Virus record (IMG/VR): IMGVR_UViG_3300031963_000048
Span: 1 to 64,000 of that record
Direction: 5' to 3' (one strand)
Length of the DNA stretch: 64,000 bases
Origin: a virus
This document shows, in pieces, positions 30,609-59,899 of this stretch (positions are counted from its first letter, which is position 1; the number at the start of each line of letters is the position of its first letter). The position numbers were made by a program, and so were the translations under genes. The notes beneath the pieces were generated by a model. It ran no database searches. It was given only the letters and a program-made list of their open reading frames with translations, and was not told the DNA's origin.

Positions 30609-30659
30609 TTGACAAACTGGCACAGGGGGGTCGCAAGACCCCTTTTTTGCTGCTATAAT
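30609..30659 (+). promoter_or_regulatory. TGGCACA-class early promoter with internal terminator
   Basis: TTGACAAACTGGCACA (TGGCACA at 30618) and TATAAT (30654), start-to-start 36 bp. The terminator at 30627-30648 lies between them. Serves the SF2 helicase. Confidence 0.8.
30627..30648 (+). terminator. terminator of the fibre operon
   Basis: GGGGTC-GCAA-GACCCC followed by six T. It ends the late fibre transcripts. Confidence 0.92.
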
Positions 30660-30678
30660 ATGTGTATTGAATTGAGAG

Positions 30679-31908
30679 ATGATGTACCAACTTCGCCCTC
30701 ACCAACAAGTTGCTCTGGATGCTCTGGCACAGCATCTCAAAGGTATCTGTGTGTTTCCTACCGGTGGTGGTAAGACCAACGTGGGCATTTTTGATGCTAT
30801 TCGTGTGTTTCAGTCTAGCACCCCCAAGACTATTGTAGTGACGGCGCCGCGCATCCTCCTGGCAGAGCAGTTGTCTGCTGAATACCTTGAGTTTATCACT
30901 AATGCTTCTGTGATGCACATTCACAGTGGTGAGACTCATCACTTCAGCAGCACTCGTCCCAATGCGATTCGCACTTGGTATGAGCAAACTCAAGGTCACA
31001 AACTGATTTTCACCACTTACAATTCTCTGCAGCAACTTGCAAAGGCAGATATTGAGGTGGATACGATTTACTTTGATGAGGCACACAATAGCGTTCAACG
31101 TCACTTCTTTCCTGCTGTAGAGCATTTTGCTGCTGAAGCAAAGCGTTGCTACTTCTTTACTGCAACTCCCAAGTATTCTGCCACCGTTGCCAAACCTGGT
31201 ATGAATGATGTTGCTGTCTACGGTAATATCATCGCCAAAGTTCCTGCTCCTGAATTGGTACAGGGTGGCTATATCATTCCTCCCAAAGTGATTACTGCTC
31301 CAATGCGTCTGTCCGTCAAGGGTGAGGATATTGCTCAACGGGACTGTGAGTATCTGATGCAAATCATTCAGGACAATCCTGTCGATAAGATTCTGGTGTG
31401 TGCAAAGGCAACTCGCCACATCATTGCTCTGCTGTCTGAATCTGACTTTGCAGACCAGATTGCCGAGCAAGGTTACTCTGTGCTGCACATTACTGCCAAG
31501 CACGGTGCATTTATTGATGGGCAGAAGGTCAATCGTGAGGTGTTTTTTGACACTCTGAATGCTTGGGGCAAAGACCCTGACAAAAAGTTTGTGGTCCTGC
31601 ATCACAGCATTCTGGCAGAAGGCATCAACATTTCTGCTCTGGAAGCGGTCGTGTTCTTGCGCTCTATGGACGTTGTGGGCATCGGTCAGACCGTTGGTCG
31701 GACGCTGCGTCTGCACCCCCAAGACGCCGCTGGAATCCGCTCTGGCGCCATTCAGGCAGGCGACCTGTCGTCCTACACTAAATCCTATGGTCTGGTGGTC
31801 TGCCCGGTCTTTGACAAGGCATCTACGGGCACTGCGAAGGCAGTCCAGAATGTGGTGGACATCATCTTCAAGCAAGGTGAGGTTGCCGTCAGCATTGTCA
31901 GGCGCTGA
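30679..31908 (+). CDS. superfamily 2 DNA/RNA helicase
   Basis: 409 aa. Motifs in order: Walker A FPTGGGKT (26-33), DEAH (132-135), TATP motif III (160-163) and motif VI GQTVGRTLR (335-343). This is a ResIII-like SF2 helicase. It could be the UvsW-type branch-migration enzyme, but I see no extra UvsW domain, so the exact role (recombination, replication restart, transcription) is open. Codon use is more GC-rich than in the fibre genes. Two ATG codons stand in tandem at the start. Confidence 0.92.
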   Translation: MMYQLRPHQQVALDALAQHLKGICVFPTGGGKTNVGIFDAIRVFQSSTPKTIVVTAPRILLAEQLSAEYLEFITNASVMHIHSGETHHFSSTRPNAIRTWYEQTQGHKLIFTTYNSLQQLAKADIEVDTIYFDEAHNSVQRHFFPAVEHFAAEAKRCYFFTATPKYSATVAKPGMNDVAVYGNIIAKVPAPELVQGGYIIPPKVITAPMRLSVKGEDIAQRDCEYLMQIIQDNPVDKILVCAKATRHIIALLSESDFADQIAEQGYSVLHITAKHGAFIDGQKVNREVFFDTLNAWGKDPDKKFVVLHHSILAEGINISALEAVVFLRSMDVVGIGQTVGRTLRLHPQDAAGIRSGAIQAGDLSSYTKSYGLVVCPVFDKASTGTAKAVQNVVDIIFKQGEVAVSIVRR

Positions 31909-31947
31909 CTTTTCTGCTATACTACCTACACATCAGGAGAAACTCTA

Positions 31948-32091
31948 ATGCGCTGCAAAGTCCAACTCTATGTCGCTGGCAAAGTCTTTGATGAGATTGT
32001 CGAGGCACGTGATTATGATGATGCCAGGCGGACTGCTCTAGCACGTAATCCAAGTGCTAAAGTTATTGGTGTGACCGCTGTATTCGGATGA
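31948..32091 (+). CDS. small conserved protein
   Basis: 47 aa (MRCKVQLYVAGKVFDEIVEA at the start, ARNPSAKVIGVTAVFG at the end). Ribosome site AGGAG at 31935-31939. It looks like a tiny alpha/beta domain of a kind I recall in many cyanophages. The stop overlaps the next start (ATGA). Function unknown. Confidence 0.78.
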   Translation: MRCKVQLYVAGKVFDEIVEARDYDDARRTALARNPSAKVIGVTAVFG

Positions 32092-32333
32092 GCGAAAACT
32101 TTCAGAAACCTTTTGTAGATCGTCCAGGAATCTTAAATCCAAAACCATCAGATCCACAAGGTTATGTCACTAAAGATGGTATGTGGGCAGCAGTGCCATT
32201 TGGTAAAAAGTTTATTATCATTCACAACGGACAGCAGGTTCATCTAGCAAACAATTACAAGTCCGCCAAAACCTACATTCAAAAGTCCGCAAAAGGCGCA
32301 TCGGTCTCCAGTCTAGATCAATTTCTTGGTTAA
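32088..32333 (+). CDS. conserved protein of unknown function
   Basis: 81 aa. Proline-rich start (KPFVDRPGILNPKPSDPQG), then a small beta domain (WAAVPFGKKFIIIHNGQQ) and a helix (YKSAKTYIQKSA). It is coupled to the 47-aa gene by an ATGA overlap. Confidence 0.75.
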   Translation: MSENFQKPFVDRPGILNPKPSDPQGYVTKDGMWAAVPFGKKFIIIHNGQQVHLANNYKSAKTYIQKSAKGASVSSLDQFLG

Positions 32334-32355
32334 ATAATAAAACTATGAGACCTAG

Positions 32356-32589
32356 ATGATGTCTTATTATGCTTGGTTTATCGTATTTGCAGTAGCGGCA
32401 TACTTTATCGCAACAGATGATAGTATCGCTGCTGCCTTTTATTATGTGCTTAAGTTAGCAAAGTCTAACTATGAGAAACAAAAGTGGTGGTTGTTAAACA
32501 ATCCACGTAATCCTGTGGTAAAATATTTAATGTGGCGTCGTTCTATGAAACTCGCAAAAGAGTTAATGGACGAATATAAAAATAAATAA
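32356..32589 (+). CDS. small membrane protein
   Basis: 77 aa. Residues 4-20 (YYAWFIVFAVAAYFIAT) form one membrane segment, possibly a second weak one (AAAFYYVLKL). The rest is basic and likely cytoplasmic. Function unknown. Confidence 0.72.
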   Translation: MMSYYAWFIVFAVAAYFIATDDSIAAAFYYVLKLAKSNYEKQKWWLLNNPRNPVVKYLMWRRSMKLAKELMDEYKNK

Positions 32590-32609
32590 CACTACATCTG
32601 GTAATACAT

Positions 32610-32927
32610 ATGCTCTCTACGCAGTACAGATTGAGACTGGAAGCAATCTGTGAGAAGATTGTACTTCATAAAGAAGTAAGTTTAGAAGATATGATCTGGG
32701 CAGAGAAACTTGCAAAGGCAAATCGCTCTGCTGGAACAATGCTCCGCCAGGCAAGACGTAAAGCGGAAAATCCCAATATGGATGAAATGGATGATTTCCT
32801 AAACTCAATGGATATTGGTGGTTTAGGGCACGAAAGATTTGGTAGAAGAGGTTTTGACAACCCAGATGAACTGCATGATTGGTTTAAACGTGATGATGAC
32901 GAAACCGATTGGCGAACAAGAGATTGA
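32610..32927 (+). CDS. conserved cyanophage protein of unknown function
   Basis: 105 aa. A helical, charged N-terminal half (LEAICEKIVLHKEVSLEDMIWAEKLAK) is followed by a flexible acidic region with GGLGHERFGRRGF and a terminal DDDETDWRTRD. The promoter for the next unit begins at its 3' end. Confidence 0.75.
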   Translation: MLSTQYRLRLEAICEKIVLHKEVSLEDMIWAEKLAKANRSAGTMLRQARRKAENPNMDEMDDFLNSMDIGGLGHERFGRRGFDNPDELHDWFKRDDDETDWRTRD

Positions 32928-32952
32928 CAATATCTGAAAAAACCTTTATAAT
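32924..32952 (+). promoter_or_regulatory. consensus sigma70 promoter
   Basis: TTGACA (32924-32929), 17-bp spacer, TATAAT (32947-32952), 21 nt before the ATG at 32974. Starts the first small-gene unit (32974-34176). Confidence 0.92.
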
Positions 32953-32973
32953 ACCCGCATATACACTCTGATT

Positions 32974-33177
32974 ATGGACTACAAACCCTATAGTATGGAA
33001 TGGAGTCGGCGGCGGTATCTTGCCGAAGCAATCCAACAATACTTTGATACTGATGCGTCTCTGGATGTTGTCCTGGACGATATTGTGAGTGTGCTTGAGG
33101 AGAATGTAGAGCACCACAAGAGTCGTGCCGAACGCTTTCAGGAAGTTCTGGATGGTCTGAAATCTCTTCCTTATTGA
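32974..33177 (+). CDS. small conserved protein
   Basis: 67 aa, fully helical (WSRRRYLAEAIQQYFDTD, then VLDDIVSVLEENVEHHKSRAERF). First gene behind a consensus early promoter. Function unknown. Confidence 0.78.
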   Translation: MDYKPYSMEWSRRRYLAEAIQQYFDTDASLDVVLDDIVSVLEENVEHHKSRAERFQEVLDGLKSLPY

Positions 33178-33178
33178 T

Positions 33179-33364
33179 ATGAAACCTAACTTTCGTAAGG
33201 TATTGGAGATGGCACTGGAAGAAGGTGTCCGTTATGGATACAATCGTGCCCATAAACACGTAGAGAACCCACACGAAGATGCTGTGGTTGATTGTGTGGT
33301 TGATGGTGCGATGAACTCTCTGTATGAATGGTTTGACTTTGAGGAAAACAATAATGAGCAGTAA
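33179..33364 (+). CDS. small conserved protein
   Basis: 61 aa (MKPNFRKVLEMALEEGVRYG at the start; YNRAHKHVENP; DGAMNSLYEWFDFEENN). Helical with two His-rich turns. It overlaps the next start by 11 nt. Function unknown. Confidence 0.75.
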   Translation: MKPNFRKVLEMALEEGVRYGYNRAHKHVENPHEDAVVDCVVDGAMNSLYEWFDFEENNNEQ

Positions 33365-33527
33365 AACTTATCTACAATATGTCGCAATCCCTGCACTTGC
33401 GTTTTTTGTGTCCGCTATTGTATCATATAATCTGACACCAGAAAAAACACCACACCATACATCTACGGTCTCTGGATCTTCTGGTGACCTTAAATGCACT
33501 ACATCTTGTGTTATTAAAGAGCAATGA
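33354..33527 (+). CDS. small single-pass membrane protein
   Basis: 57 aa from the ATG at 33354 with GAGG upstream. Residues 8-26 (YVAIPALAFFVSAIVSYNL) form a membrane segment; a Thr/Ser-rich part and a CTTSC pair follow, likely outside the cytoplasm. Confidence 0.7.
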   Translation: MSSKTYLQYVAIPALAFFVSAIVSYNLTPEKTPHHTSTVSGSSGDLKCTTSCVIKEQ

Positions 33528-33811
33528 ATCTAATTAAATTTAAGCATCGCTATGACTTTGGACACGAAGTTTATGTTCAAGTTGTTAATATTAAACGATG
33601 GAGTTTGTTTCAGTTTTCTGTAAGTTGGAATGATTATCCTTCTTCACCTTATCTTCAGATTACAATGGGAAGTAATGGTCTTTTAGGTATTCTCTTCTGG
33701 GCATATAAGTTTGGGTTTGATATTGATTTGCTTTCCCGCACTTGGAGATGGGACCATTTAGAGGAAGTGGATGAAAAAGAGACTGATTATCTTGGAATGG
33801 ATGAGTGTTGA
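33524..33811 (+). CDS. conserved protein of unknown function
   Basis: 95 aa. Beta-rich start (HEVYVQVVNIKRWSLFQFSVSW), a hydrophobic middle (LLGILFWAYKFGFDIDLL) and acidic tail. ATGA overlap with the gene before. A membrane-edge location is possible from the middle segment. Confidence 0.73.
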   Translation: MNLIKFKHRYDFGHEVYVQVVNIKRWSLFQFSVSWNDYPSSPYLQITMGSNGLLGILFWAYKFGFDIDLLSRTWRWDHLEEVDEKETDYLGMDEC

Positions 33812-34176
33812 TGAAGAAAAAACTGAACTGGTTTGAGTATTACTTCGGACATTGTTTCCAGACTGGTTGGAGAGAGATCTGGAACAACTTTAAGATGTGG
33901 AGAGATCTCATCAGTGGAAACTATGCTGATTATGCTCTGCTGAAAAACGACGATCCATATGAAGAATGTTATCAGTGGTTCTGGTGCAGCATTAATATGG
34001 ATGAAACATATCCCAAAGAGTTTCTAGAATATCTGATGGAGATGTGTGATAGGATTGATCGTGGTGAAGAAAAGGTCTATCCACTTGATGAAGACTTTAT
34101 GAATAGACTTAAAGACCTTACTGGCGATGAGGACACTTTGGAAACTGGCACAGAGGACGTTGAAGACGCCTCCTGA
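33811..34176 (+). CDS. conserved acidic protein
   Basis: 121 aa from the ATG at 33811 (TGATG overlap); an in-frame GTG at 33805 is possible. Aromatic-rich N-terminus (WFEYYFGHCFQTGWREIWNNF) and acidic C-terminus. The TGGCACA element of the next promoter (34146) is inside its 3' end, encoding part of its C-terminal TGTEDVED. Confidence 0.72.
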   Translation: MKKKLNWFEYYFGHCFQTGWREIWNNFKMWRDLISGNYADYALLKNDDPYEECYQWFWCSINMDETYPKEFLEYLMEMCDRIDRGEEKVYPLDEDFMNRLKDLTGDEDTLETGTEDVEDAS

Positions 34177-34187
34177 TGCCCTATAAT
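34137..34187 (+). promoter_or_regulatory. TGGCACA-class early promoter
   Basis: TGGCACA at 34146 and TATAAT at 34182, 36 bp start to start, inside and after the preceding gene. Leader of 21 nt to the ATG at 34209. Confidence 0.75.
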
Positions 34188-34208
34188 ACCATTATACGAA
34201 ACGCCCCT

Positions 34209-34814: not shown

Positions 34815-35065
34815 GATTTCGTAACATAGAGTTTCGTTGGAGTAAAGTCAACAACAAGTATGAACTCGTCAAGTGGTATACTCACGACTCTGGTGATAGT
34901 TGCTATGTCGTTGCTTTCTTCAATAAAAGCACAGAAGGCTATGATATGAGAACCATCGGTACTAGGTTCTTTGAGGATAAAGATGCTTGGGTTGTAGGTA
35001 AATATGGTTTGGAGTTTCTAAATGCTATCTCTGCTATTCAAAAAGAGGAAGATGAACTGAAATAG
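34811..35065 (+). CDS. conserved protein of unknown function
   Basis: 84 aa. Beta-rich (FRNIEFRWSKVNNKYELVKWYTH, CYVVAFFNK) with a short helical acidic end (LEFLNAISAIQKEEDELK). Last gene before the next promoter/terminator module. Confidence 0.75.
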   Translation: MRFRNIEFRWSKVNNKYELVKWYTHDSGDSCYVVAFFNKSTEGYDMRTIGTRFFEDKDAWVVGKYGLEFLNAISAIQKEEDELK

Positions 35066-35070
35066 GACAC

Positions 35071-35121
35071 TTGAAGAACTGGCACAGGAGCATCCCACAG
35101 GTGCTCCTTTTGCCTTATAAT
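35071..35121 (+). promoter_or_regulatory. TGGCACA-class early promoter with hairpin
   Basis: TTGAAGAACTGGCACA (TGGCACA at 35080) and TATAAT (35116), 36 bp apart. A hairpin AGGAGCA/TGCTCCT followed by TTTG lies between and can end the upstream unit. Confidence 0.82.
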
Positions 35122-35316: not shown

Positions 35317-35317
35317 A

Positions 35318-36264: not shown

Positions 36265-36581
36265 CTGAACGCATTCAAGTCAAAGAAACTCAACAATACT
36301 GGGGAGATTTTGACGGAACACTTGAAAGTATTATTGCCGCACTTCAAGCAGAGTTAGATGCTGGTTGGGTGGGACTTGAATATGAATGCGAACCATATGA
36401 GGATGGTGCCTATTATCTTTACAAGCATCGTGAAGAAACCGACAAAGAATACAATAAGAGAATGAAACAACTGGAGAAAGAAAAGGCAGAGAAAGAAAAA
36501 GCAAAGGAACGAAAACTTCAACAACTGAAGAAAGACCTTGCTTCTTTGAGTGATGCCGACAAAAAACTCTTGGGTATGTAG
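36261..36581 (+). CDS. protein with C-terminal coiled coil
   Basis: 106 aa. Residues 1-55 form a small domain (GTLESIIAALQAELDAGWVG, YEDGAYYLYKHR); residues 56-95 are a lysine/glutamate coiled coil (EKEKAEKEKAKERKLQQL) and the end is SDADKKLLGM. Last gene of its unit. Confidence 0.75.
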   Translation: MTERIQVKETQQYWGDFDGTLESIIAALQAELDAGWVGLEYECEPYEDGAYYLYKHREETDKEYNKRMKQLEKEKAEKEKAKERKLQQLKKDLASLSDADKKLLGM

Positions 36582-36586
36582 GACAC

Positions 36587-36637
36587 TTGAAGAACTGGCA
36601 CAGGGGATGCTCTGGATGCCTCTGGATGCCTTATAAT
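36587..36637 (+). promoter_or_regulatory. TGGCACA-class early promoter
   Basis: TTGAAGAACTGGCACA (TGGCACA 36596) and TATAAT (36632), 36 bp apart. Between them TCTGGATGCC occurs twice in tandem (36611-36630). The leader CATACACACAGACACCT is shared with the promoters at 37312 and 41996. Confidence 0.82.
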
Positions 36638-37102: not shown

Positions 37103-37260
37103 CTGACGAACAAATCCTACAACTTGTAAAAGAACATTTTGAAGAAGATTGGGATGAGAATGATGGTTGGGAGTATTCTGGAAACTTTGATGCCTTTGTG
37201 AAGTTTGCCCAAGAAATCTATGATAAGGCTTATGATGATGGTTGCTTCGACAATTATTGA
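37099..37260 (+). CDS. MTDEQIL-family small protein
   Basis: 53 aa: MTDEQILQLVKEHFEEDW, later FVKFAQEIYDKAYDDG. The start MT(D/N)EQIL and the later FA-x-I-x2-x-GY segment recur at 40579, 40778 and 42025, so this is one member of a local paralogue family. Function unknown. Confidence 0.75.
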   Translation: MTDEQILQLVKEHFEEDWDENDGWEYSGNFDAFVKFAQEIYDKAYDDGCFDNY

Positions 37261-37266
37261 GGACAC

Positions 37267-37317
37267 TTGAAGAACTGGCACAGGGGATGCTCTGGGTGCC
37301 TCTGGATGCCCTATAAT
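37267..37317 (+). promoter_or_regulatory. TGGCACA-class early promoter
   Basis: TTGAAGAACTGGCACA (TGGCACA 37276) and TATAAT (37312), 36 bp apart; GGCAC can pair with GTGCC downstream. Follows the previous stop directly. Confidence 0.82.
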
Positions 37318-40224: not shown

Positions 40225-40513
40225 TCCTCTCCTACAAAAATATGAAGAACTCTACGGAAAGAAAGAAGAACCAAAACCAGATTATTATAAGGGTGAAAAG
40301 TCATACGCAGAAGAACTGGAAGAACTTCGGGATACTTCTACTATTCCAATCACAAAACTCACCTGTTATGATAATGAGAGTTTGAATGATGGTTTCTTAC
40401 AAATTGCAGAAAAGTTAAAAAACAAAGAGGCACAAGTATATTCTATGAATATGAATATAGACCATTCAAGTCGCACAAGAAGAATTACCTTTGAGGTGTG
40501 GGACAATTTTTGA
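40217..40513 (+). CDS. unknown protein
   Basis: 98 aa. Charged N-terminal half (YEELYGKKEEPKPDYYKGEK) and a C-terminal alpha/beta half (LQIAEKLKNKEAQVYSMNMN; TRRITFEVWDNF). Last gene of the 37343-40513 unit; the next promoter element begins inside its last codons. Confidence 0.72.
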   Translation: MTNPLLQKYEELYGKKEEPKPDYYKGEKSYAEELEELRDTSTIPITKLTCYDNESLNDGFLQIAEKLKNKEAQVYSMNMNIDHSSRTRRITFEVWDNF

Positions 40514-40557
40514 ACTGGCACAAGGACTCCCCAAAGTCCCTGAAAATGCCTTATAAT
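40507..40557 (+). promoter_or_regulatory. TGGCACA-class early promoter with hairpin
   Basis: TGGCACA (40516) and TATAAT (40552), 36 bp apart. GGACT/AGTCC can form a hairpin between. Serves 40579-41953. Confidence 0.78.
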
Positions 40558-41708: not shown

Positions 41709-41953
41709 AACATCCTGCTAATGAATATCTTGACCCCCAAGAAGATGCTCAACTTTCATTTAACAAGTGGTTTTATGAAGATTTTTATGGACGATTTACA
41801 TATCGGTATGAATACTTTATGGACGACATAAAAATTGAGGATGAGAACCAAAGGAAACAAATTCTTATCAGTTGGGTGGAAAGTGCATTTTTGTGTGGAT
41901 ACGAATATGCTCTTTATAAGCAACTGGAAAAAGAGGTAGAGAAGGACACTTGA
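41705..41953 (+). CDS. unknown protein
   Basis: 82 aa from the ATG at 41705. Aromatic and acidic (FNKWFYEDFYGRFTYRYEYF; WVESAFLCGYEYALYKQLEK). The FxxGYExAL segment is similar to the C-terminal pattern of the MTDEQIL family. Last gene of its unit. Confidence 0.72.
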   Translation: MKHPANEYLDPQEDAQLSFNKWFYEDFYGRFTYRYEYFMDDIKIEDENQRKQILISWVESAFLCGYEYALYKQLEKEVEKDT

Positions 41954-42001
41954 AGAACTGGCACAGGGGCACTTGAAAACGGGTGCCCTTTGTCGTATAA
42001 T
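41950..42001 (+). promoter_or_regulatory. TGGCACA-class early promoter with hairpin
   Basis: TTGAAGAACTGGCACA (TGGCACA 41959) and TATAAT (41996), 37 bp apart, with GGGCAC/GTGCCC hairpin and TTTG between. Shares the leader CACACAGACACCT with the modules at 36632 and 37312. Confidence 0.82.
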
Positions 42002-43262: not shown

Positions 43263-44021
43263 ATGACTTCACAAAGTCCAAGAATATACTTATACAAAAT
43301 TACTTTTGAAGAAGTTCCATATTATTATTATGGGGTTCATAAGGAAAAATATTACAACGAAGAATATTGGGGAACTCCTATAACTCATAAATGGTGTTGG
43401 AAATTTTATACTCCAAAGAAACAAATACTTGAAGTTTTTGATTATACTGACGAAAGTTGGTTAGAAGCACAAGAAGTTGAAAAAAGAATAATTAGACCTT
43501 TTCTTAACGATAATTGGTGTTTGAATGAAAATTGTAATGGTATTTTATCACTAAAAATACTCAAAGCAGCAGGAAAAAAAGCAGCAGAAACTCATAAAAA
43601 TAATAATACAGGACTTTACAATGTTTCTTTGGAAAAAAGAATTGAAAATGGTAAAAAGGCATATGAACTTGGAGTGGGAGTTCATTCAAGAACAAAAGAA
43701 AAAATGAGTGAAGATGGTAGAAAAGGTGCTAAAACACAACAGGAACTTTGTATAGGAATACACGGAAAAACAAAAGAACAAATTCGTGAAGATGGTAGAA
43801 AAGGTGGAAATAAAGTAAAAGAACTCGGATTAGGAATACACGGATTTACTAAACAACAGAGAATTGAAAATGCTAGAAATGGTGGAAAAGTTAGTGGAAA
43901 AAATGTAGGAAATCAAAAATGGATGTGTATTGAAACTGGATTTATTTCTAATCCAGGAGGACTTACGAGATATCAAAAATCAAAAAATATAGACACTTCT
44001 AAAAGAGTAAGAGTATCATAA
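43263..44021 (+). CDS. putative GIY-YIG-like homing endonuclease
   Basis: 252 aa. The N-terminus IYLYKITFEEVPYYYYGVHK (residues 8-27) resembles a diverged GIY-YIG core. The C-terminal half has repeated DNA-binding-like units: LGVGVHSRTKEKMSEDGRKG, GIHGKTKEQIREDGRKGG and LGIHGFTKQQRIENARNGG. Such repeats occur in T4-like homing enzymes. It is inserted between two early units with its own late promoter. The catalytic Arg/Glu are not pinned down. Confidence 0.75.
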   Translation: MTSQSPRIYLYKITFEEVPYYYYGVHKEKYYNEEYWGTPITHKWCWKFYTPKKQILEVFDYTDESWLEAQEVEKRIIRPFLNDNWCLNENCNGILSLKILKAAGKKAAETHKNNNTGLYNVSLEKRIENGKKAYELGVGVHSRTKEKMSEDGRKGAKTQQELCIGIHGKTKEQIREDGRKGGNKVKELGLGIHGFTKQQRIENARNGGKVSGKNVGNQKWMCIETGFISNPGGLTRYQKSKNIDTSKRVRVS

Positions 44022-44027
44022 GGACAC

Positions 44028-44079
44028 TTTGCAAACTGGAACAGGGGCACTTGAAATCTGGTGCCCTTTGTTGTATAAT
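44028..44079 (+). promoter_or_regulatory. TGGCACA-class early promoter (variant TGGAACA)
   Basis: TTTGCAAACTGGAACA (TGGAACA 44037) and TATAAT (44074), 37 bp apart, with GGGCAC/GTGCCC hairpin between. Serves the long unit 44102-49190. Confidence 0.76.
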
Positions 44080-47154: not shown

Positions 47155-47305
47155 TAGTCTTAAGATAACACAAAATGAAGATGGGTCTTATACAATGGGA
47201 TGGGACAAGGAAGACCCAAATTGGAAGTGGTTGAATGGGTTGACTTCCAAGGAGATTCAGGTTATTATGGAACAAGCAATCAAAGACTACCTCAATGACC
47301 TCTGA
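47144..47305 (+). CDS. small conserved cyanophage protein
   Basis: 53 aa: LKITQNEDGSYTMGWDKEDP, WKWLNGLTSKEIQVIMEQAI. The QNEDGSYTMxWDxxDPxW core is one I recall in many cyanophages. Function unknown. Overlaps both neighbours by 11 nt. Confidence 0.8.
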   Translation: MNADSLKITQNEDGSYTMGWDKEDPNWKWLNGLTSKEIQVIMEQAIKDYLNDL

Positions 47306-47882
47306 TTACAAAAAGTATTCGCTTGAAAAACTTCAAGAGTGGGTTCACGATGCGATGAATAGTGATGCTTCACCGCACGAAATCTATTCTGCGATTCGTG
47401 AAGCAGTTCGTGAAGAGTATTATTACCATAAAGACTGTATTAGTCGTGCTTCTGGACTTCTGGAACTTCTGAGTGGTCATCGTCCCGTAGAAGATAGTTC
47501 AATTCTTCAATGTGATAAAGACGATAAATCTCCAGAGTGTCAAAAATCCTGGAATGATTTCTGGGAAGAGAATTATTACCCAGAAGAATATCAAAAATAT
47601 ACTACAAATAATATCAATCTTCAAAAAGAAGTTGAAGACATTCGTAAAGAGGGTGGATACGATTGGACCCCAGAAGTAAAAAAAGATAAGGTAAAGAAGT
47701 GGGTTCTTCCAGTTGAAGAAGTCCGAGATGAAGACACTGATGAAGATATTTACTGCGTAACATTTCCCGATGATCTTCTAGAAGCAGCAAATCTGAAAGA
47801 AGGTGATATTGTTGAGTGGGTGAATCAGGGTGATGATTCTTATCTTTTGCAAAAACACACTGAAACGTTTAGATTTAAATGA
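47295..47882 (+). CDS. two-part protein with AbrB-like C-terminus
   Basis: 195 aa. The N-terminal part (SLEKLQEWVHDAMNSDASPH; EEYYYHKDCISRASGLLELL) is helical with a KSWNDFWEENYYPEE segment. The C-terminal 50 residues (YCVTFPDDLLEAANLKEGDI, VEWVNQGDDSYLL) have the SpoVT/AbrB swapped-hairpin pattern, which usually binds DNA as a dimer. A regulatory role is inferred. Confidence 0.77.
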   Translation: MTSDYKKYSLEKLQEWVHDAMNSDASPHEIYSAIREAVREEYYYHKDCISRASGLLELLSGHRPVEDSSILQCDKDDKSPECQKSWNDFWEENYYPEEYQKYTTNNINLQKEVEDIRKEGGYDWTPEVKKDKVKKWVLPVEEVRDEDTDEDIYCVTFPDDLLEAANLKEGDIVEWVNQGDDSYLLQKHTETFRFK

Positions 47883-48956: not shown

Positions 48957-49190
48957 ATGTCATCACGTTACAAAACTATGGATAACATCGATCAACATAT
49001 TCAAAAGGACGAGGACCTTTTGAGTGACCCAACTATTTCTCCACAATCAAGGAGACATACTGAAGAAGAACTAGAAGCACTTAAAACATATAAAGAACAC
49101 CATCCTGAAGACTCTCACGATCCTACACCACTGGAACTTTATTGTGATGCCAATCCTGATGCATTAGAGTGTAGAGTGTATGATGACTGA
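48957..49190 (+). CDS. cp12: CP12-like regulator of the Calvin cycle
   Basis: 77 aa from the ATG at 48957. The C-terminus (LELYCDANPDALECRVYDD, C63 and C72) is the CP12 signature: a redox-sensitive cysteine pair ending in ECR(I/V)YDD. The second, N-terminal cysteine pair of host CP12 is absent, as in phage forms I recall. CP12 binds glyceraldehyde-3-phosphate dehydrogenase and phosphoribulokinase and shuts the Calvin cycle. In cyanophages it is thought to redirect carbon to the pentose phosphate pathway and NADPH for nucleotide synthesis. Last gene of the 44102-49190 unit; AATAAATA-like sequence overlaps its start. Confidence 0.85.
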   Translation: MSSRYKTMDNIDQHIQKDEDLLSDPTISPQSRRHTEEELEALKTYKEHHPEDSHDPTPLELYCDANPDALECRVYDD

Positions 49191-49196
49191 GGACAG

Positions 49197-49248
49197 TTAG
49201 AAAACTGGCACAAGGGGTCTCCTGGTTCGCTGGGAGACCCCTTATAAT
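49197..49248 (+). promoter_or_regulatory. TGGCACA-class early promoter with strong hairpin
   Basis: GTTAGAAAACTGGCACA (TGGCACA 49206) and TATAAT (49243), 37 bp apart. A 9-bp hairpin GGGGTCTCC/GGAGACCCC (49214-49241) fills the space up to the -10. Confidence 0.83.
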
Positions 49249-49273: not shown

Positions 49274-49654
49274 ATGGCAACTCGTGGAAGAATCGGAATC
49301 GAACTTTCTGATGGAAGCATCTTGAGCAGTTATCATCATTGGGACTCGTATCCCGAATGGTTGGGTCGCATCCTGAAGACGCACTACAATAGCAAAGAAC
49401 TTGCTGCCGACCTGATTGACGGTGGTGATATGAGCACGTGCTGGGCAGAAGATAAGAAACCCGAGTATTATAGTGCCCGTGGTGAAGATTGCCCCCCTCG
49501 CCTTGATGCTAATCTGGGTGAGTTTCTTCAAAACGGTGAAGAGTATGGTTATGTTTATACTCAAGAAGAAGGTTGGTTGTGCTATGACACTTGCGACTGG
49601 CATGAAACCTACCTTGAAGGTGTAGAGATTCCTTCTGGTGCTCTTGCTGTGTGA
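49274..49654 (+). CDS. conserved phage protein of unknown function
   Basis: 126 aa. ATRGRIGIELSDGSILSSYHHWDSYPEWLG is a pattern I recall in many phage proteins, beginning with RGRIG and a YHHWD(S/G)YP motif. Possible catalytic or metal role of the histidines is speculative. Single gene between a TGGCACA promoter and a terminator. Confidence 0.85.
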   Translation: MATRGRIGIELSDGSILSSYHHWDSYPEWLGRILKTHYNSKELAADLIDGGDMSTCWAEDKKPEYYSARGEDCPPRLDANLGEFLQNGEEYGYVYTQEEGWLCYDTCDWHETYLEGVEIPSGALAV

Positions 49655-49775: not shown

Positions 49776-49901
49776 ATGGACCTGTCTGAACTGATTGATG
49801 AACTGCGGGAGATCGCTCTGTATGAGTCTGATCCACAAGATTGGATGGGTTATTTGGAGAATGATGACTATTGGGTGCCAGATCCTGAACTGGCATACTG
49901 A
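49776..49901 (+). CDS. very small acidic protein
   Basis: 41 aa: MDLSELIDELREIALYESDP, then WMGYLENDDYWVPDPELAY. Between a promoter and the next promoter element, whose TGGCATA encodes its last residues (LAY). Confidence 0.65.
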   Translation: MDLSELIDELREIALYESDPQDWMGYLENDDYWVPDPELAY

Positions 49902-49932
49902 CGCTCTGAGAGGCGCCTAGGTGCCTTATAAT
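49883..49932 (+). promoter_or_regulatory. TGGCACA-class early promoter (variant TGGCATA)
   Basis: TGGCATA (49891) and TATAAT (49927), 36 bp apart, with GGCGCC-containing hairpin between. Serves 49954-52555. Confidence 0.72.
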
Positions 49933-49953: not shown

Positions 49954-50385
49954 ATGACCACCACCTTCGCTGACTACGCCGCTGCTGCTGAGGCACGGAA
50001 AGACATCGCTGCTGCTGTTCTGGGGCACACCTATGCCCTCTGTGAGGCACTGCGTCAGAACTACATTGATTACTCTATTCGGAGTCATCAACTTCGTACA
50101 TCTGATGTAGAGTATCACGATGCTTGCATTGAGAATCTGAAGCAGGGCACTTGTGACTATGACTTCTACCCTGAGACTGGTCGTAAGTATCACAAAATCA
50201 TTATGAATGCGAATGGTTCGCGTTCTGTCCACGCTTTTGTGGACAAGAAGACTGGTCAAGTCTACAAGTCTGCATCCTGGAAAGCACCTGCCAAGGGTGT
50301 TCGCTACGATCTTCGCATCATTGAGCAGCGTGAATGGTTGCTTCAACATGCTGACTGGGCAGGTTCCTACCTTTACGCCCGCTGA
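49954..50385 (+). CDS. conserved cyanophage protein
   Basis: 143 aa from the ATG at 49954; the longer MPYN-starting frame is promoter sequence. FADYAAAAEARKDIAAAVLG is helical, and a C-terminal domain has HAFVDKKTGQVYKSASWKAP and GVRYDLR. Very similar proteins are frequent in T4-like and other cyanophages. Function unknown. Confidence 0.85.
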   Translation: MTTTFADYAAAAEARKDIAAAVLGHTYALCEALRQNYIDYSIRSHQLRTSDVEYHDACIENLKQGTCDYDFYPETGRKYHKIIMNANGSRSVHAFVDKKTGQVYKSASWKAPAKGVRYDLRIIEQREWLLQHADWAGSYLYAR

Positions 50386-51721: not shown

Positions 51722-52555
51722 ATGACTATGGAGACAAACCGAGTTTATAATGATAGCTGTGTTGATGGCATGAATGCCATGAATGCAGAATCTGTGGATT
51801 TGTGTGTAACCTCTCCTCCATATGATGATTTAAGAACGTATAACGATTCCTCCAAGTGGGATTTTAATGTCTTTAAAGATGTTGCACAAGCACTTGCCAG
51901 AGTATTGAAACCTGGTGGGGTTATCATGTGGAATGTTGGGGACGCAACAATTGATGGTGGCGAAACTGGAAGTAGTTTTCGCCAGGCACTTTACTTTATG
52001 GATGAGTGCGGATTGCGTCTGCATGATACCATGATTTACGAAAAGACAGGAATTGCTTTTGCTGCTGGTGAAAAGTCGCTGCGCTATTCGCAGGCATTTG
52101 AGTATTGTTTTATTCTGAGCAAAGGCAAACCCAAGACGGTGAATATTATCATGGACAAACCAAATGCCTGGGCAGGGCATAAGTCCTGGGGAAATGCACG
52201 TGCTCGGAAGAAGGATGGAAGTCTGGAGATTACAGACGAAAAGACAAAAGAAATCAAGGAGTTTGGTGCTCGTACGAATATCTGGAAAATCAAGAATAGT
52301 GGTGGATTTGGACAATCCAATAAAAGAGCATATGAGCATCCTGCTACCATGCCAGAGCAACTTGCCTACGATCATATTATCACTTGGACCAATCCTGGTG
52401 ACCTTGTTTTAGATCCATTTATGGGCAGTGGCACAACGGCAAGAATGGCAATCAAAGCAGACCGTAAGTATATTGGATTTGAGATTGACCAAACCTACTG
52501 GGAGTTGTGTCAGGACATTACACCACAAAGCACTGTCTTTGACGCCCTGAACTGA
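51722..52555 (+). CDS. DNA methyltransferase (TSPPY/DPFMGSGTT type)
   Basis: 277 aa. The catalytic TSPPY is at 30-34 and the AdoMet-binding DPFMGSGTT at 231-239, in the order catalytic then binding (beta-class arrangement), with EHPATMPEQLA before the second. Such enzymes methylate N4 of cytosine or N6 of adenine. The target site cannot be read from sequence. It could protect phage DNA or alter regulation. A specificity domain may be residues 140-205. Confidence 0.93.
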   Translation: MTMETNRVYNDSCVDGMNAMNAESVDLCVTSPPYDDLRTYNDSSKWDFNVFKDVAQALARVLKPGGVIMWNVGDATIDGGETGSSFRQALYFMDECGLRLHDTMIYEKTGIAFAAGEKSLRYSQAFEYCFILSKGKPKTVNIIMDKPNAWAGHKSWGNARARKKDGSLEITDEKTKEIKEFGARTNIWKIKNSGGFGQSNKRAYEHPATMPEQLAYDHIITWTNPGDLVLDPFMGSGTTARMAIKADRKYIGFEIDQTYWELCQDITPQSTVFDALN

Positions 52556-52559
52556 CCAA

Positions 52560-52611
52560 TTCAAAAACTGGCACAGGGGGCACTGCGCTGTCTCCTGTAT
52601 TGCCCTATAAT
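52560..52611 (+). promoter_or_regulatory. TGGCACA-class early promoter
   Basis: TTCAAAAACTGGCACA (TGGCACA 52569) and TATAAT (52606), 37 bp apart. Serves 52645-53918. Confidence 0.8.
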
Positions 52612-53718: not shown

Positions 53719-53918
53719 CCGAAGCAAATGTTAATCTAAATGTTCATGAAGTTGGTGTAATTCTATCCGCACTTCAGTTATTGAATCTCCGTGATGAGAA
53801 TCAAATCGCAAGAGAATATGGAAGTGTACCAGCACTGTACAACAAACTTTACACGGTCTTTGAGCAGATGGACAGTTCGCAAACTGGTCTACGCAACGAC
53901 GTGGTGCCGTCCTTCTGA
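53715..53918 (+). CDS. small conserved cyanophage protein
   Basis: 67 aa: VNLNVHEVGVILSALQLLNL, then IAREYGSVPALYNKLYTVFE. The VN-x-NVHEVGVILSALQ core is one I recall widely in cyanophages. Function unknown. The next promoter element (TGGTCTA at 53885) is inside its 3' end. Confidence 0.8.
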   Translation: MTEANVNLNVHEVGVILSALQLLNLRDENQIAREYGSVPALYNKLYTVFEQMDSSQTGLRNDVVPSF

Positions 53919-53926
53919 CCTATAAT
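53877..53926 (+). promoter_or_regulatory. TGGCACA-class early promoter (degenerate, TGGTCTA)
   Basis: GTTCGCAAACTGGTCTA (TGGTCTA 53885) and TATAAT (53921), 36 bp apart; weak match to TGGCACA, but spacing and flanks fit. Serves 53951-56106. Confidence 0.6.
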
Positions 53927-56435: not shown

Positions 56436-56506
56436 ACATTCTGTTACGAGATCCACATCAGAACTCGTCTAGAACGCTCTAGATTCATATATATTATCGT
56501 ATGAAT

Positions 56507-56590: not shown

Positions 56591-56593
56591 CTC

Positions 56594-56876: not shown

Positions 56877-56938
56877 TGTGGCAGTTTAAAGATTGGACCT
56901 ATTCTCAATAAGGTCCTCGTTATTGAGAATGAGGACAG

Positions 56939-56990
56939 TTGAGAATCTGGCACAGTAGGGGTTGATATCTGCCACGTGATGGTTTACATT
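56939..56990 (+). promoter_or_regulatory. TGGCACA-class promoter
   Basis: GTTGAGAATCTGGCACA (TGGCACA 56948) and TACATT (56985), 37 bp apart. Serves 57016. Confidence 0.72.
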
Positions 56991-57015
56991 ACCTTCGTTG
57001 TCGCAATTAATTCGA

Positions 57016-57150
57016 ATGTGTGGTCCTGTTTTTGAATATTCTCGTGAGGATTTCTTCAATGATGCTTCTCAGGAAGAATGGGATGAATGGGAATCTAAAG
57101 CAGCAGAACTTGAGTTGCCTTTAGATTACTATCTCGCGGAGTTTGTATAA
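57016..57150 (+). CDS. small protein ending KAAELE-x-DYYxxEFV
   Basis: 44 aa: CGPVFEYSREDFFNDASQEE, then KAAELELPLDYYLAEFV. Its C-terminus matches the gene at 54508. The 3' end is followed by another promoter. Function unknown. Confidence 0.72.
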   Translation: MCGPVFEYSREDFFNDASQEEWDEWESKAAELELPLDYYLAEFV

Positions 57151-57165
57151 GAAACCTTGTGCCAG

Positions 57166-57217
57166 TTGAGAGAGTGGCACACAGGGGGTTGTGGTGCGCC
57201 AGGATCCCTGATACATT
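57166..57217 (+). promoter_or_regulatory. TGGCACA-class promoter
   Basis: GTTGAGAGAGTGGCACA (TGGCACA 57175) and TACATT (57212), 37 bp apart. Serves 57242-57733. Confidence 0.72.
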
Positions 57218-57241
57218 ACATTCGTCCCTGAGAGACAAACC

Positions 57242-57367
57242 ATGTTTGACGAACTCTGGTCTGAGATTCAAGATGCTCCTGGTGAAATCTTTGACCTTGA
57301 CATTCCCGAACTTCGTGATGAGAAGTTCGATGTGAATGAGTACCTGAACGCAAACTACGATTACTGA
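57242..57367 (+). CDS. very small acidic protein
   Basis: 41 aa: FDELWSEIQDAPGEIFDLDI, then ELRDEKFDVNEYLNANYDY. Overlaps the next gene (TGATG). Function unknown. Confidence 0.7.
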   Translation: MFDELWSEIQDAPGEIFDLDIPELRDEKFDVNEYLNANYDY

Positions 57368-57516
57368 TGAACTATCTCACTCCCGACGATCTTAACAATC
57401 TGATTCGTTTGGTTGAAGATAACAACCAATACAATGATGATGAGGATAAAGAGTTTTGGAATGACATTCTCATTCGTCTGAATCAAACTTCCCGTCACTG
57501 TCTTGATGAGTTCTGA
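57367..57516 (+). CDS. small acidic protein
   Basis: 49 aa: NYLTPDDLNNLIRLVEDNNQ, then FWNDILIRLNQTSRHCLDE. Helical. Coupled to the gene before it. Function unknown. Confidence 0.72.
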   Translation: MNYLTPDDLNNLIRLVEDNNQYNDDEDKEFWNDILIRLNQTSRHCLDEF

Positions 57517-57517
57517 A

Positions 57518-57733
57518 ATGACCCTTACTACCCAACAACTTGACCAACTGATTGAAAACTACGCTGAGCGTATTGTTGATGAGATGGACACCAAATGTTT
57601 GATGCAATTTGTGTACGATACGCTTGTTGAGAGTTTGGCAGGTAAATCTGAAGAAGATGTGCTCGGTGAGATTGCCTATGTTTATGATGAGGATGTTGTC
57701 GAAGAATTGATTGAGAGTGTGACAGTTCAGTAA
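57518..57733 (+). CDS. small acidic helical protein
   Basis: 71 aa from the ATG at 57518. TTQQLDQLIENYAERIVDEM, then SEEDVLGEIAYVYDEDVVEE. All-helical. Its last codons overlap the next TGGCACA element. Confidence 0.76.
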   Translation: MTLTTQQLDQLIENYAERIVDEMDTKCLMQFVYDTLVESLAGKSEEDVLGEIAYVYDEDVVEELIESVTVQ

Positions 57734-57777
57734 GTGGCACAAGGGGGGTTGCAAGTCCCCCCGATCTGGTCCATACT
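57726..57777 (+). promoter_or_regulatory. TGGCACA-class promoter (weak -10)
   Basis: TTCAGTAAGTGGCACA (TGGCACA 57735), CATACT at 57772 as -10, 37 bp apart. A GGGGGG/CCCCCC hairpin lies between. Confidence 0.6.
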
Positions 57778-57803
57778 ACATTTGTTGAGAGGGAAACCCC
57801 CAA

Positions 57804-58151
57804 ATGCGTAAGATTGAATCCCAGATGAATGCTGCCATTCGTGACTCCCGCAATTGGAAGTCTGGCAACACTGAGGTTACCTTTGACGCTGAAACTAACG
57901 AGTCGAAAGTGTTTCTTTTCGGCAATCACATTGCTACCATTGGTGACAACTTCGTGCAAATCTTTGACGGTGGATGGCAGTCTGTGACCACCAAATCCCG
58001 CCTGAATGCGATTCTTCAAGAGCATGGAATCAAGGGTGAATGTGTGTTTCAAAAGAACTTTAAGTGGTTCGTCCACAAGTTCATCGGGCAGGCAGGAACT
58101 TCTCCTGTCTACAATGAATACGATTTCAGCAATGGTTTCATGTTTGCATAA
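57804..58151 (+). CDS. conserved phage protein of unknown function
   Basis: 115 aa: MRKIESQMNAAIRDSRNWKS, EVTFDAETNESKVFLFGNHI, TTKSRLNAILQEHGIKGECV. Found in many T4-like and T7-like cyanophages in my memory. Single gene between a TGGCACA promoter and a terminator. Confidence 0.85.
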   Translation: MRKIESQMNAAIRDSRNWKSGNTEVTFDAETNESKVFLFGNHIATIGDNFVQIFDGGWQSVTTKSRLNAILQEHGIKGECVFQKNFKWFVHKFIGQAGTSPVYNEYDFSNGFMFA

Positions 58152-58157
58152 AGAATC

Positions 58158-58183
58158 GGGGGGCAATATGCTCCCCTTTTTTT
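58158..58183 (+). terminator. rho-independent terminator
   Basis: 8-bp stem from GGGGGGCA to TGCTCCCC with loop ATA (one G-T pair), followed by seven T. Confidence 0.9.
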
Positions 58184-58211
58184 ATACTCAAGTCGGCTGC
58201 TCGTGTGCCAG

Positions 58212-58263
58212 TTGAGAGAGTGGCACACACCCCCTTGCAATCGGCACCAATCCCTGCAATACT
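58212..58263 (+). promoter_or_regulatory. TGGCACA-class promoter (weak -10)
   Basis: GTTGAGAGAGTGGCACA (TGGCACA 58221) and AATACT (58258), 37 bp apart. Confidence 0.6.
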
Positions 58264-58269
58264 AAAAGC

Positions 58270-59166
58270 ATGAAAAACACCCACCTTGAGCACCCCGAAG
58301 ATTCTATTCTCACGGGTGACCTTTCTGCCCTGGATTGGTTCGTGAATCCTGGCAACTTGAGCGTCAAGATTGATGGCGCCCCTGCGATTGTCTGGGGTGT
58401 GAATCCTGCCAATGGTGAGTTCTTTGTAGGAACCAAAGCAGTCTTTAACAAGAAAAAGATTCGTATTGCTCACAATCATGAAGAAATTGATTCATTCTAT
58501 CAGGGTGAAGTTGCGCGTATTCTTCACGCTTGCTTTGATTATCTGCCTCGCTTCGATACTATCTACCAAGGTGATTTTATTGGGTTTGGTGGTAGTGATG
58601 AGTATACTCCCAACACGATCACTTACAAGTTTCCTGAGGTAGTTTCTCAGCAAATTATCATTGCACCGCACACTTGCTATTATGCTGAGAGCGATCTTCG
58701 TGACGCTCAAGCATTCCCCGATCGTAGCATCTGGAATGATACTGAGACGGTGAAGTTCGTGCAACCTCAAGCATACATTCAGCACGGTCAAACGTCCTTC
58801 GCTGATGTAGAGGAAGTCTGCAAGTTTGCCCGTCAAATGGCAACTGTTGTGACCTTTGCAACTGATAAAGAAGCGGCAAAGATTAAGCAGCAACTGAATG
58901 CTTGCATCCGTGAGAATCGTCCTGTTGTGAATAGTGAATTCGACTGCGATCCTAACCTGCTGGGGTTGTGGGCACTGGTGAAATCTATCAAGGCAGATTG
59001 TCTCTATCTGTGCCGCAATGATGGTCCTGCCGCTTACATCGGGCAGGAGAGAATCGACTCCGAAGGTTACGTACTCACCAATGAGTTTGGTATGTTTAAG
59101 TTGGTGAATCGTGAGGCATTCTCCTATCATAATTTCAACAGCGGTCGCTTTCAGTGTGCCAGTTGA
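58270..59166 (+). CDS. KxDG-containing, ligase-like nucleotidyltransferase candidate
   Basis: 298 aa. VKIDGAPAIVWG (K33-I-D-G36) has the K-x-D-G motif in which ATP-dependent DNA/RNA ligases and capping enzymes become adenylylated. IYQGDFIGF (about 98-106) can act as motif III. Similar phage proteins are grouped as DUF6267. A role in nucleic acid end repair is possible, but the other motifs (IV, V) are not clear. Single gene with its own promoter. Confidence 0.62.
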   Translation: MKNTHLEHPEDSILTGDLSALDWFVNPGNLSVKIDGAPAIVWGVNPANGEFFVGTKAVFNKKKIRIAHNHEEIDSFYQGEVARILHACFDYLPRFDTIYQGDFIGFGGSDEYTPNTITYKFPEVVSQQIIIAPHTCYYAESDLRDAQAFPDRSIWNDTETVKFVQPQAYIQHGQTSFADVEEVCKFARQMATVVTFATDKEAAKIKQQLNACIRENRPVVNSEFDCDPNLLGLWALVKSIKADCLYLCRNDGPAAYIGQERIDSEGYVLTNEFGMFKLVNREAFSYHNFNSGRFQCAS

Positions 59167-59213
59167 ATAGGTGGCACAACCCCACCAGGGTGCCCGCACC
59201 GATACCCTATACT
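59163..59213 (+). promoter_or_regulatory. TGGCACA-class promoter
   Basis: GTTGAATAGGTGGCACA (TGGCACA 59172) and TATACT (59208), 36 bp apart. Confidence 0.7.
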
Positions 59214-59256
59214 AAGGGCATCGGAGGGGAAACGACCCTCCACAGCATTCCCCCTG

Positions 59257-59844
59257 ATGACTCTGACCGCCACCCTTGAGAAACTCACCGCTTTTGTGGT
59301 GACTGAAACCAACCGCTACGTTAGTGAAGAGTTCCGCCTGTATGGTAAGACTCTGCAACAGATTAAAGATAGCGGCATGGAAACTGCAGACTTTACGAAA
59401 ATCTTTCAATACATTGTAAATGAGGTGATTGAGGAAGGAATCCGTCGCCTTGGGATTGATGGTCGCCGTGAGGAAGTTGCCGGGTATGATTACATCATCG
59501 AAGGTCAACCTGTTGAGTTCAAATTGATGGGCGGCGAGTCTAAATCGTCCTTTGCCACTGGTAACAAAACCTCTCACTTTGGTGGCAAAAAGACTAACCT
59601 TGTGTGGTCGATTAAGTACACCTTCAGTGATAATCAAATCGACAACTTTGGTATGGTTTTGATTGATACCAATCTCACCAAATCTAACGTTTGGAAGTCT
59701 TCCTCTGGTCGCAAAGATTCCTTCTCTCAGTTGCAACTTTCTATCGGTGAAGATAACTGCATTCTGTCGCAAATGGGCATTGTGAAACCTGCTCAAAAGT
59801 GGTTGCAGTTCCTGCCCCTGCCCACTGCCGTCCTGCTGGGGTGA
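59257..59844 (+). CDS. PD-(D/E)XK nuclease candidate
   Basis: 195 aa. GYDYIIEGQPVEFKLM gives D78-x8-E87-x-K89, a restriction-type catalytic triad. Ser/Thr/Gly-rich NKTSHFGGKKTNLVWSIKYT follows. The arrangement is like type II restriction or repair enzymes, so it may be a phage nuclease that degrades host DNA or excludes other phages. A clear methyltransferase is 7 kb away. Long leader (about 44 nt) after the promoter. Confidence 0.65.
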   Translation: MTLTATLEKLTAFVVTETNRYVSEEFRLYGKTLQQIKDSGMETADFTKIFQYIVNEVIEEGIRRLGIDGRREEVAGYDYIIEGQPVEFKLMGGESKSSFATGNKTSHFGGKKTNLVWSIKYTFSDNQIDNFGMVLIDTNLTKSNVWKSSSGRKDSFSQLQLSIGEDNCILSQMGIVKPAQKWLQFLPLPTAVLLG

Positions 59845-59847
59845 CAA

Positions 59848-59899
59848 TTCACCAGGTGGCACACCCTGCCCCCTGAGACCCCACCCGACCCCTTACACT
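59848..59899 (+). promoter_or_regulatory. TGGCACA-class promoter
   Basis: ATTCACCAGGTGGCACA (TGGCACA 59857) and TACACT (59894), 37 bp apart. Serves 59924. Confidence 0.62.

Follow-up and report, generated by a model that had tools for sequence, protein, structure and literature searches.

Which signal starts transcription in the block of small open reading frames (ORFs) between 30.6 and 59.9 kb of a viral genome, and what might act on it? The DNA analysed (the window) comprises bases 1-64,000 of the 94,806-base IMG/VR virus record IMGVR_UViG_3300031963_000048. The nearest records in the phage collection belong to Synechococcus and marine phages, which share 77-84% identity with no more than 4% of a 20-kb query; from these and from its gene content the record would be that of a T4-like cyanophage. 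An earlier note had listed 18 copies of TGGCACA or a close variant, each followed by a -10-like hexamer. All 18 are present, and the hexamer begins 36 bp after TGG at nine of them and 37 bp after it at the other nine, exactly as claimed. TGGCACA is exact at 15 sites, the exceptions being TGGAACA (44037), TGGCATA (49891) and TGGTCTA (53885), and TATAAT is exact at 12. All 18 sites fall within the block of small ORFs. Within the limits of the genome scan, no further plus-strand site was found in the window or in the remaining 30.8 kb of the record, and three minus-strand matches (49880, 57724 and 59161) are the reverse sides of dyads already counted. The sites probably represent a dimer-activated host sigma-70 promoter class of T4-like cyanophages, fused with a terminator in a manner resembling the promoter-early stem-loop (PeSL) cassettes that Arbiol in 2010 and Comeau in 2014 reportedly described in T4-like phages. 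As judged from sequence, the architecture is a genuine promoter class of T4-like cyanophages, which adds a dyad to the promoter-terminator cassette.

The earlier note had described a bipartite box, TTGA-N5-TGGCACA, standing in for a missing -35, with TTGA in most copies. This description was too narrow, as TTGA occurs in only nine of the 18 copies (TT in 17) and what is conserved is a dyad whose proximal half is the stronger. The element is an imperfect 24-bp dyad with a promoter-proximal half-site TGTG[C/A]CA[G/C]TT (read outward-in) and a weaker distal half, which retains G[A/C]CA[G/C]TT and is loose beyond. The halves were compared with a symmetric pattern in 66 dyads that have a -10 on one side only, taken from seven genomes (the record itself, S-PM2, S-CRM01, P-SSM2, Syn9, P-HM2 and S-SRM01); the proximal half was nearer the consensus in 44, farther from it in 13 and equal in nine. 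With a 4-nt loop between its arms the inverted repeat could form a hairpin, and the dyad might thus act as RNA, in the processing or termination of read-through transcripts. However, at half of the ten half-site positions (0, 1, 2, 4 and 7) the arms could base-pair in only 21-26 of the 66 copies, and a hairpin gives no reason for a fixed distance to the -10. The poor pairing of the arms therefore points to a protein site, and the hairpin explanation is disfavoured as very improbable.

The fixed distance was examined in the seven genomes with the dyad pattern GNCANTT-N4-AANTGGCAC, allowing at most one mismatch over 13 fixed positions, and with dinucleotide-type shuffles as control. Counted on both strands, so that a palindrome may count twice, the record holds 21 dyads compared to 0.0 per shuffle set, S-PM2 14 (0.2), S-CRM01 22 (0.2), P-SSM2 17 (0.2), Syn9 three (0.2), P-HM2 five (1.2) and S-SRM01 22 (0.0). 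This bears out the earlier claim that the geometry is not due to chance. When each dyad is counted once, 12 of 17 in the record have TATAAT (at most one mismatch) at TGG+35 to 37, while five control windows yield 0-2. In all seven genomes the figure is 53 of 82, on either side of the dyad, and control windows centred on 26, 31, 42, 47 and 52 yield 3, 6, 4, 6 and 3 of the same dyads. Position 36 accounts for 36 of these -10 elements, position 37 for 16 and position 35 for six. The count against shuffled sequence in the whole genome and in related cyanophages that the earlier note had proposed, run here on the dyad, thus gave enrichment in every genome, but left 29 of the 82 dyads without a close -10. 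A -10 is present on both sides of six dyads, compared to about two as a rough estimate from the control windows, and some dyads may be bidirectional. In P-SSM2 a single near-perfect dyad (66597 on the minus and 66608 on the plus strand) is flanked by -10-like hexamers 36 bp off on both sides.

The same spacing is found in viral contigs. Sites were collected in two IMG/VR scans of at least 120 stretches each, and all figures for them hold among the matches listed; near-duplicates were dropped by a 52-bp key only, so that the sites are not all independent. A starting set held 262 sites; the 257 used are those with flanks on both sides, a few of the 263 over N28-30 having been dropped. The upstream half of the dyad (CA at -9/-8), which lay outside the search pattern, is present at 111/120 sites with N29, 55/60 with N30, 61/83 with N28 and 10/18 with N27, compared to 6/44 at the control spacing N19-20, for which the scan gave 67 stretches in total. 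Spacer identity between contigs has a median of 0.31-0.33 (0.24-0.26 when shuffled) and exceeds 0.7 in 1.2-2.6% of pairs; within genomes, only 8 of 973 spacer pairs are more than 70% identical. As spacer identity is near chance, the spacing would owe its constancy to selection rather than to recent copying. These data bear on an explanation by which the cassettes are plain PeSLs, with a host sigma-70 early promoter and a terminator, and the dyad is a recombination or replication feature without a role in transcription. The fusion of stem-loop and promoter, mostly in ORF-dense variable regions, and the existence of dyad-less stem-loop promoter candidates, such as that near 22,067 in S-PM2, speak for it. 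On the other hand, the distance from dyad to -10 is kept though the spacers are mostly unrelated, the copies are not recent duplicates, and the published S-PM2 deletion (5,799-15,339) ends away from dyads: it spans those at 8590, 9870 and 11364 and ends at none, so that dyads were rejected as recombination ends. We regard the plain PeSL explanation as improbable.

The spacer of 28-30 bp has features of its own. Its composition, at the 257 viral sites to which the statistics on spacer, -35 and start region refer, tends to run from G-rich through C-rich and G/C to T-rich. Stems of at least 7 bp, near a preferred place, are found in 97 spacers compared to 14 after one shuffle (a single shuffle also served for the -35, TGn and TTTT counts), and TTTT stands near the spacer end in 84 compared to eight. 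Terminator-like spacers number 76, against a mean of 11.7 over shuffles and five on the opposite strand. A notable stem is lacking in about half of the spacers (z is below -1 in 53%, and 99/257 have stems of at most 4 bp). Roughly a third of the spacers may thus double as terminators of the upstream gene, while many do not. A terminator-like stem-loop and a promoter are fused here as in PeSLs, although the majority of copies fall short of a strict terminator test. The excess of stems near a preferred place could also be taken to mean that the stem-loop itself is the recognition element, as in the hairpin promoters of the N4 type that are read by a phage polymerase. This is hardly credible, as about every second spacer lacks a notable stem, the terminator-like cases are one-stranded (76 against five), as RNA terminators should be, and 77 ORFs at 30.7-63.7 kb, which matched 24 Pfam families, gave no match to an RNA polymerase family. 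Among the Pfam matches of the same 77 ORFs are S-adenosylmethionine decarboxylase and CP12.

Downstream of the spacer, the absence of a normal -35 at 17 bp asserted earlier does not stand. Sites 41959 and 44037 have TTGAAA-N17 and site 56948 has TTGATA-N17, each hexamer matching TTGACA at five of six positions, and TTGCAA-N17, a four-of-six match, is found at 57735 and 58221. A strong sigma-70-like promoter, with both -35 and -10, is a PeSL trait; at the viral sites TATAAT is present, and a TTGACA match of at least four at N15-19 occurs in 120/257 compared to 38/257 after shuffling (at least five: 38/257 compared to three). The -35 is to be regarded as degenerate rather than absent. TGn precedes the -10 at 79/257 sites (11 after shuffling). 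At these sites, which were chosen for TATAAT, the hexamer is followed by A in 71% of cases and by G in 17%, and C[A/G]TA is conserved at hexamer +11 to +14, about the expected initiation point. An ATG of an ORF of at least 30 codons lies within 80 nt of the predicted start at 221/249 sites, 174 of these at 14-21 nt, compared to 111/249 random positions, where the distances are scattered. The earlier note was thus right about the reality of the sites and their spacing, but read the element too narrowly and made no mention of the spacer stem-loops, the start region or the 14-21-nt leader. The window also has two dyad-less candidates with a canonical TTGACA-N17-TATAAT, whose TATAAT begins at 18967 and 32947; both have an ATG downstream at leader distance.

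As the earlier note had supposed, this is a phage promoter class with a fixed, activator-like geometry, recurring in independent cyanophage genomes. Among 15 named phages (11 T4-like cyanophages together with Ma-LMM01, Syn5, T4 and the pelagiphage HTVC008M; by record taxonomy HTVC008M is filed under Kyanoviridae and P-HM2 is not), CANTTNNNNAACTGGCAC is exact in eight: S-PM2, P-SSM2, S-CRM01, S-SRM01, P-SSM4, P-HM2, DSL-LC02 and DSL-LC03. The remaining three T4-like cyanophages, Syn9, S-CREM1 and S-RSM4, have it with one mismatch only, and it was not found in Ma-LMM01, Syn5, T4 or HTVC008M. Some one-mismatch matches are a recurrent string, CACTTCCCNATCTGGCAC, that resembles conserved coding sequence, and because these look coding the evidence for a dyad in Syn9, S-CREM1 and S-RSM4 is weak. 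A dyad half with TANNNT at N28-30 occurs in nine of the 15 phages, once each in Syn9 and S-RSM4. The main clusters lie at 2-20 kb in S-PM2, 42-69 kb in P-SSM2 and 49-89 kb in S-SRM01, with some sites outside, while those of S-CRM01 are scattered; the block in the window and these clusters match the concentration of PeSLs in hyperplastic ORFan regions. When one genome from each of 84,980 bacterial and archaeal species was scanned strictly, two stretches matched, in metagenome-assembled genomes titled Microbacteriaceae and Flavobacteriales. One (NHFO01000061.1) has, along with a dyad cassette, a DUF7717-like gene of the kind met in the phages, gene content being judged by eye, and is probably a cyanophage contig binned into the Flavobacteriales genome; the other has phage-like genes nearby, likewise judged by eye, and its match may be due to chance. 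The combined dyad and -10 was thus not seen as a host regulon in this strict scan, in which the dyad alone was not searched.

The genes downstream of the dyads partly recur between phages. A helicase follows a dyad in the window, P-SSM2 and S-PM2, and phrog_1987 does so in the window, S-PM2, P-SSM2, P-HM2 and S-SRM01. Relatives of the P-SSM2 'peptidase' follow dyads in P-SSM2, P-HM2 and Syn9, relatives of P-SSM2 cobS in P-SSM2 and S-SRM01, and DUF7717 genes are likewise placed. phrog_1987, which corresponds to T4-GC66 in S-PM2, P-SSM2 and P-HM2, is the sole S-SRM01-seeded family present in all five dyad-rich named phages yet not in Syn9, and has a dyad promoter at most 400 bp upstream in five of six genomes. 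It occurs in seven of the eight phages with an exact dyad and in none of the other seven, being missing from Syn9, S-CREM1, S-RSM4 and the four dyad-less phages. Its predicted structure is confident (pLDDT 88); the model gave no PDB match at E of at most 0.001, hence no DNA-binding fold match, and the protein no Pfam family match. phrog_1987, of the families examined the one that follows exact dyads best, counts as a conserved target and as the leading candidate for the regulator. Two window proteins with AbrB/MazE-like (phrog_661) domains, at 47295-47882 and 61425-61643, have weak, sub-cut-off Pfam MazE matches and are possible phage DNA-binding proteins. With regard to gene starts, the annotated starts of S-PM2 p035 (9900) and p056 (17030) precede the points where transcription is predicted to begin (about 9918 and 17095, respectively), and their start codons may therefore be misplaced.

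The fixed 35-37 bp, the free spacer, the stronger proximal half, the upstream place and the uneven -35 together fit an activator dimer that touches the polymerase. A dimeric DNA-binding protein would occupy the 24-bp dyad (about -65 to -42, centred near -54) and recruit or steady the host sigma-70-type RNA polymerase, which would use a good -10 (TATAAT, often TGn-extended) and a degenerate -35. The spacer, whose sequence varies freely, could often hold an intrinsic terminator of the gene before it; a terminator and the following promoter would then be packed into about 60 bp, as in the PeSL cassettes known from relatives of coliphage T4. We infer activation over repression, the start position and the use of the host polymerase; the class may be early or middle. 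As an extension, an unrecognised dimeric activator, made by the phage or delivered with the virion, might replace T4 MotA/AsiA throughout the lineage and switch the ORFan-rich region via one dyad, although we give this rather less than an even chance.

If the dyad were instead a repressor operator, the host polymerase would start unaided and a phage protein would later shut the genes off. Dyads are equally typical of repressors and activators, the enriched -35-like hexamers suggest that many promoters may work alone, and the quality of dyad and -10 shows no compensation. However, from its place ahead of the core promoter the dyad covers neither the -10 nor the start, a repressor there would hardly require a fixed distance of 35-37 bp, and the stronger half-site faces the promoter. 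Repression is therefore considered unlikely. Several findings weigh against activation by a dimer in turn. Besides the dyads without a close -10, the quality of the dyad is uncorrelated with that of the -10 (rho -0.004, n=171), where simple compensation predicts a negative trend. The TTGACA match averages 3.04 in dyad promoters (n=47) and 3.48 in dyad-less candidates (n=110), which is a trend only (p = 0.08), and since -35-like hexamers are also enriched at dyad sites the dyad is not clearly a plain substitute for the -35. The missing dyad/-10 compensation, together with a mere dyad/-35 trend, is at odds with a simple activator model. With regard to the regulator, phrog_1987 is missing from P-SSM4 despite its two exact dyads, and phrog_661, found in nine of the 11 T4-like cyanophages, was rejected as the sole regulator because the dyad-rich S-CRM01 and P-HM2 are without it.

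The individual cassettes, all on the plus strand, show the range of variation. A start codon lies 13-20 nt past the predicted start at 14 of the 18 sites. The first cassette (30601..30659) has a dyad, a stem-loop GGGGGGTC.gcaa.GACCCCTT followed by TTTT and TATAAT at spacing 36, and the ATG of a helicase ORF (30679-31908) lies 13 nt past the predicted start. A dyad with the same spacing to TATAAT is also found in the second (34129..34187, TTGAAG-N16, ATG at +15), third (35063..35121, 8-bp stem and TTTT, +15), fourth and fifth (36579..36637 and 37259..37317, each with a 6-bp stem, G-T pairs allowed, and an ATG at +19) and sixth (40499..40557, 5-bp stem, +15). The next three again have a dyad, with a spacing of 37 to TATAAT: the seventh (41942..42001) has a 10-bp stem region that includes its TTGAAA at N17, with ATG at +17, the eighth (44020..44079, dyad with TGGAACA) an 8-bp stem region that likewise includes TTGAAA at N17, with ATG at +16, and the ninth (49189..49248) a 13-bp stem ahead of the phrog_1987 ORF (49274-49654, +19). 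The tenth (49874..49932, dyad with TGGCATA, 6-bp stem, TATAAT at 36) precedes an ATG at 49954 (+15) within a DUF7717 (phrog_818) frame, the eleventh (52552..52611, dyad, 7-bp stem) has TATAAT at 37 and an ATG at +27, and the twelfth (53868..53926), with a weak dyad (TGGTCTA), has TATAAT at 36 and an ATG at +18.

From 56948 onward the hexamers are, in order, TACATT, TACATT, CATACT, AATACT, TATACT and TACACT. The thirteenth cassette (56931..56990) has a dyad and TTGATA-N17-TACATT at spacing 37, with no ATG at leader distance. Four near-perfect palindromes follow, at 57175, 57735, 58221 and 59172, which agree with the full palindrome at 17 of 18 fixed positions. The first of them (57158..57217, TGTGCCA..TGGCACA, TACATT at 37) has its ATG at +18, the second (57718..57777, 8-bp stem, TTGCAA-N17-CATACT at 37) precedes a Kyano_Gp96 ORF (57804-58151, +20), the third (58204..58263, TTGCAA-N17-AATACT at 37) a DUF6267 ORF (58270-59166) that starts at the predicted start, and the fourth (59155..59213, TATACT at 36) an ORF at 59257-59844 with its ATG at +37. 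The last cassette (59840..59899) has a dyad and TACACT at 37, with ATG at +18.

In order to place the cassettes among known systems, they were compared to the promoter types of T4 and the cyanophages. In T4 middle promoters a MotA box near -30 is combined with a sigma-70 -10. The cassettes resemble these in having a -10, an upstream activator-type site and a weak or absent -35, and differ, as the earlier note had correctly stated, in the position of the conserved element, which is centred near -54. They are also unlike the late promoters of T4 and cyanophages (NATAAATA, gp55), with which they share an A+T-rich -10 in a phage promoter, in that their hexamer is TATAAT; NATAAATA stands at the -10 of none of the 18 window sites. 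Of the 24 late-type matches to NATAAATA in the record, four lie inside the dyad block and 20 outside, a contrast that is not strong because about seven would be expected inside by length. A review (PMC2984593; like all papers named below, cited from partial text) describes cyanomyoviruses as without motA and asi homologues and their early/middle control as unclear. How these common ocean viruses order their genes is the question to which a recognisable promoter is relevant: with it, genomes can be divided into transcription units, gene starts corrected and a DNA bait made for the regulator.

Early promoters are described as sigma-70-like in S-PM2 and Syn9 (PMC2984593) and SigA-like in Ma-LMM01 (PMC5780444). 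The cassettes share with them a host sigma-70 -10 and differ by the dyad, which is not named in the portions available of either paper; the Ma-LMM01 genome gave no match here. The dyad is undescribed in the literature searched, among the best 6-15 papers listed per search and as far as their partial texts go, although Doron 2016 and the original PeSL papers could hold it, and no description was met in the available parts of PMC2297514, PMC3037559, PMC5931967, PMC4177764, PMC5082946 and PMC6414667. Among 15 papers listed of 72 in one such search, the single cyanophage paper (PMC7156551) contains one match of 8 letters. PhoB boxes (PyTTAAPyPyT/A), reported in S-PM2d (PMC10976474), are likewise transcription-factor sites upstream of phage genes, but their sequence is unlike the dyad. 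The S-PM2d250 Pho-box string of that paper occurs once in the pieces scanned of S-PM2 (AJ630128), near 22067. It shares bases there with a TATACT located after a stem-loop that has TTGACG at N17, and it could be a core promoter.

The closest likeness is to PeSLs, in which an intergenic terminator stem-loop and a sigma-70-like promoter are concentrated in variable gene regions (PMC4503421, PMC3950731). The cassettes also fuse a terminator-like stem-loop with a sigma-70-like promoter in such regions, but add a dyad 35-37 bp before the -10, have a degenerate -35 and are not near-identical copies. The recombination or shuffling role of PeSLs is unsupported here, either by the low spacer identity or by the ends of the S-PM2 deletion. 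The stem loop listed for S-PM2 at 11369-11391 in PMC4503421, where PeSLs were judged too sparse in that phage, forms the spacer in one of these cassettes (dyad at about 11347-11370, TGG at 11364, TATAAT at 11400), and further dyad promoters are found in S-PM2 at 5093, 8590, 9870 and 17047. The dyad cassettes thus bear on the published view, as given in the available text, that PeSLs are few in S-PM2, and the switch of which they would be part recurs in related ocean and lake viruses.

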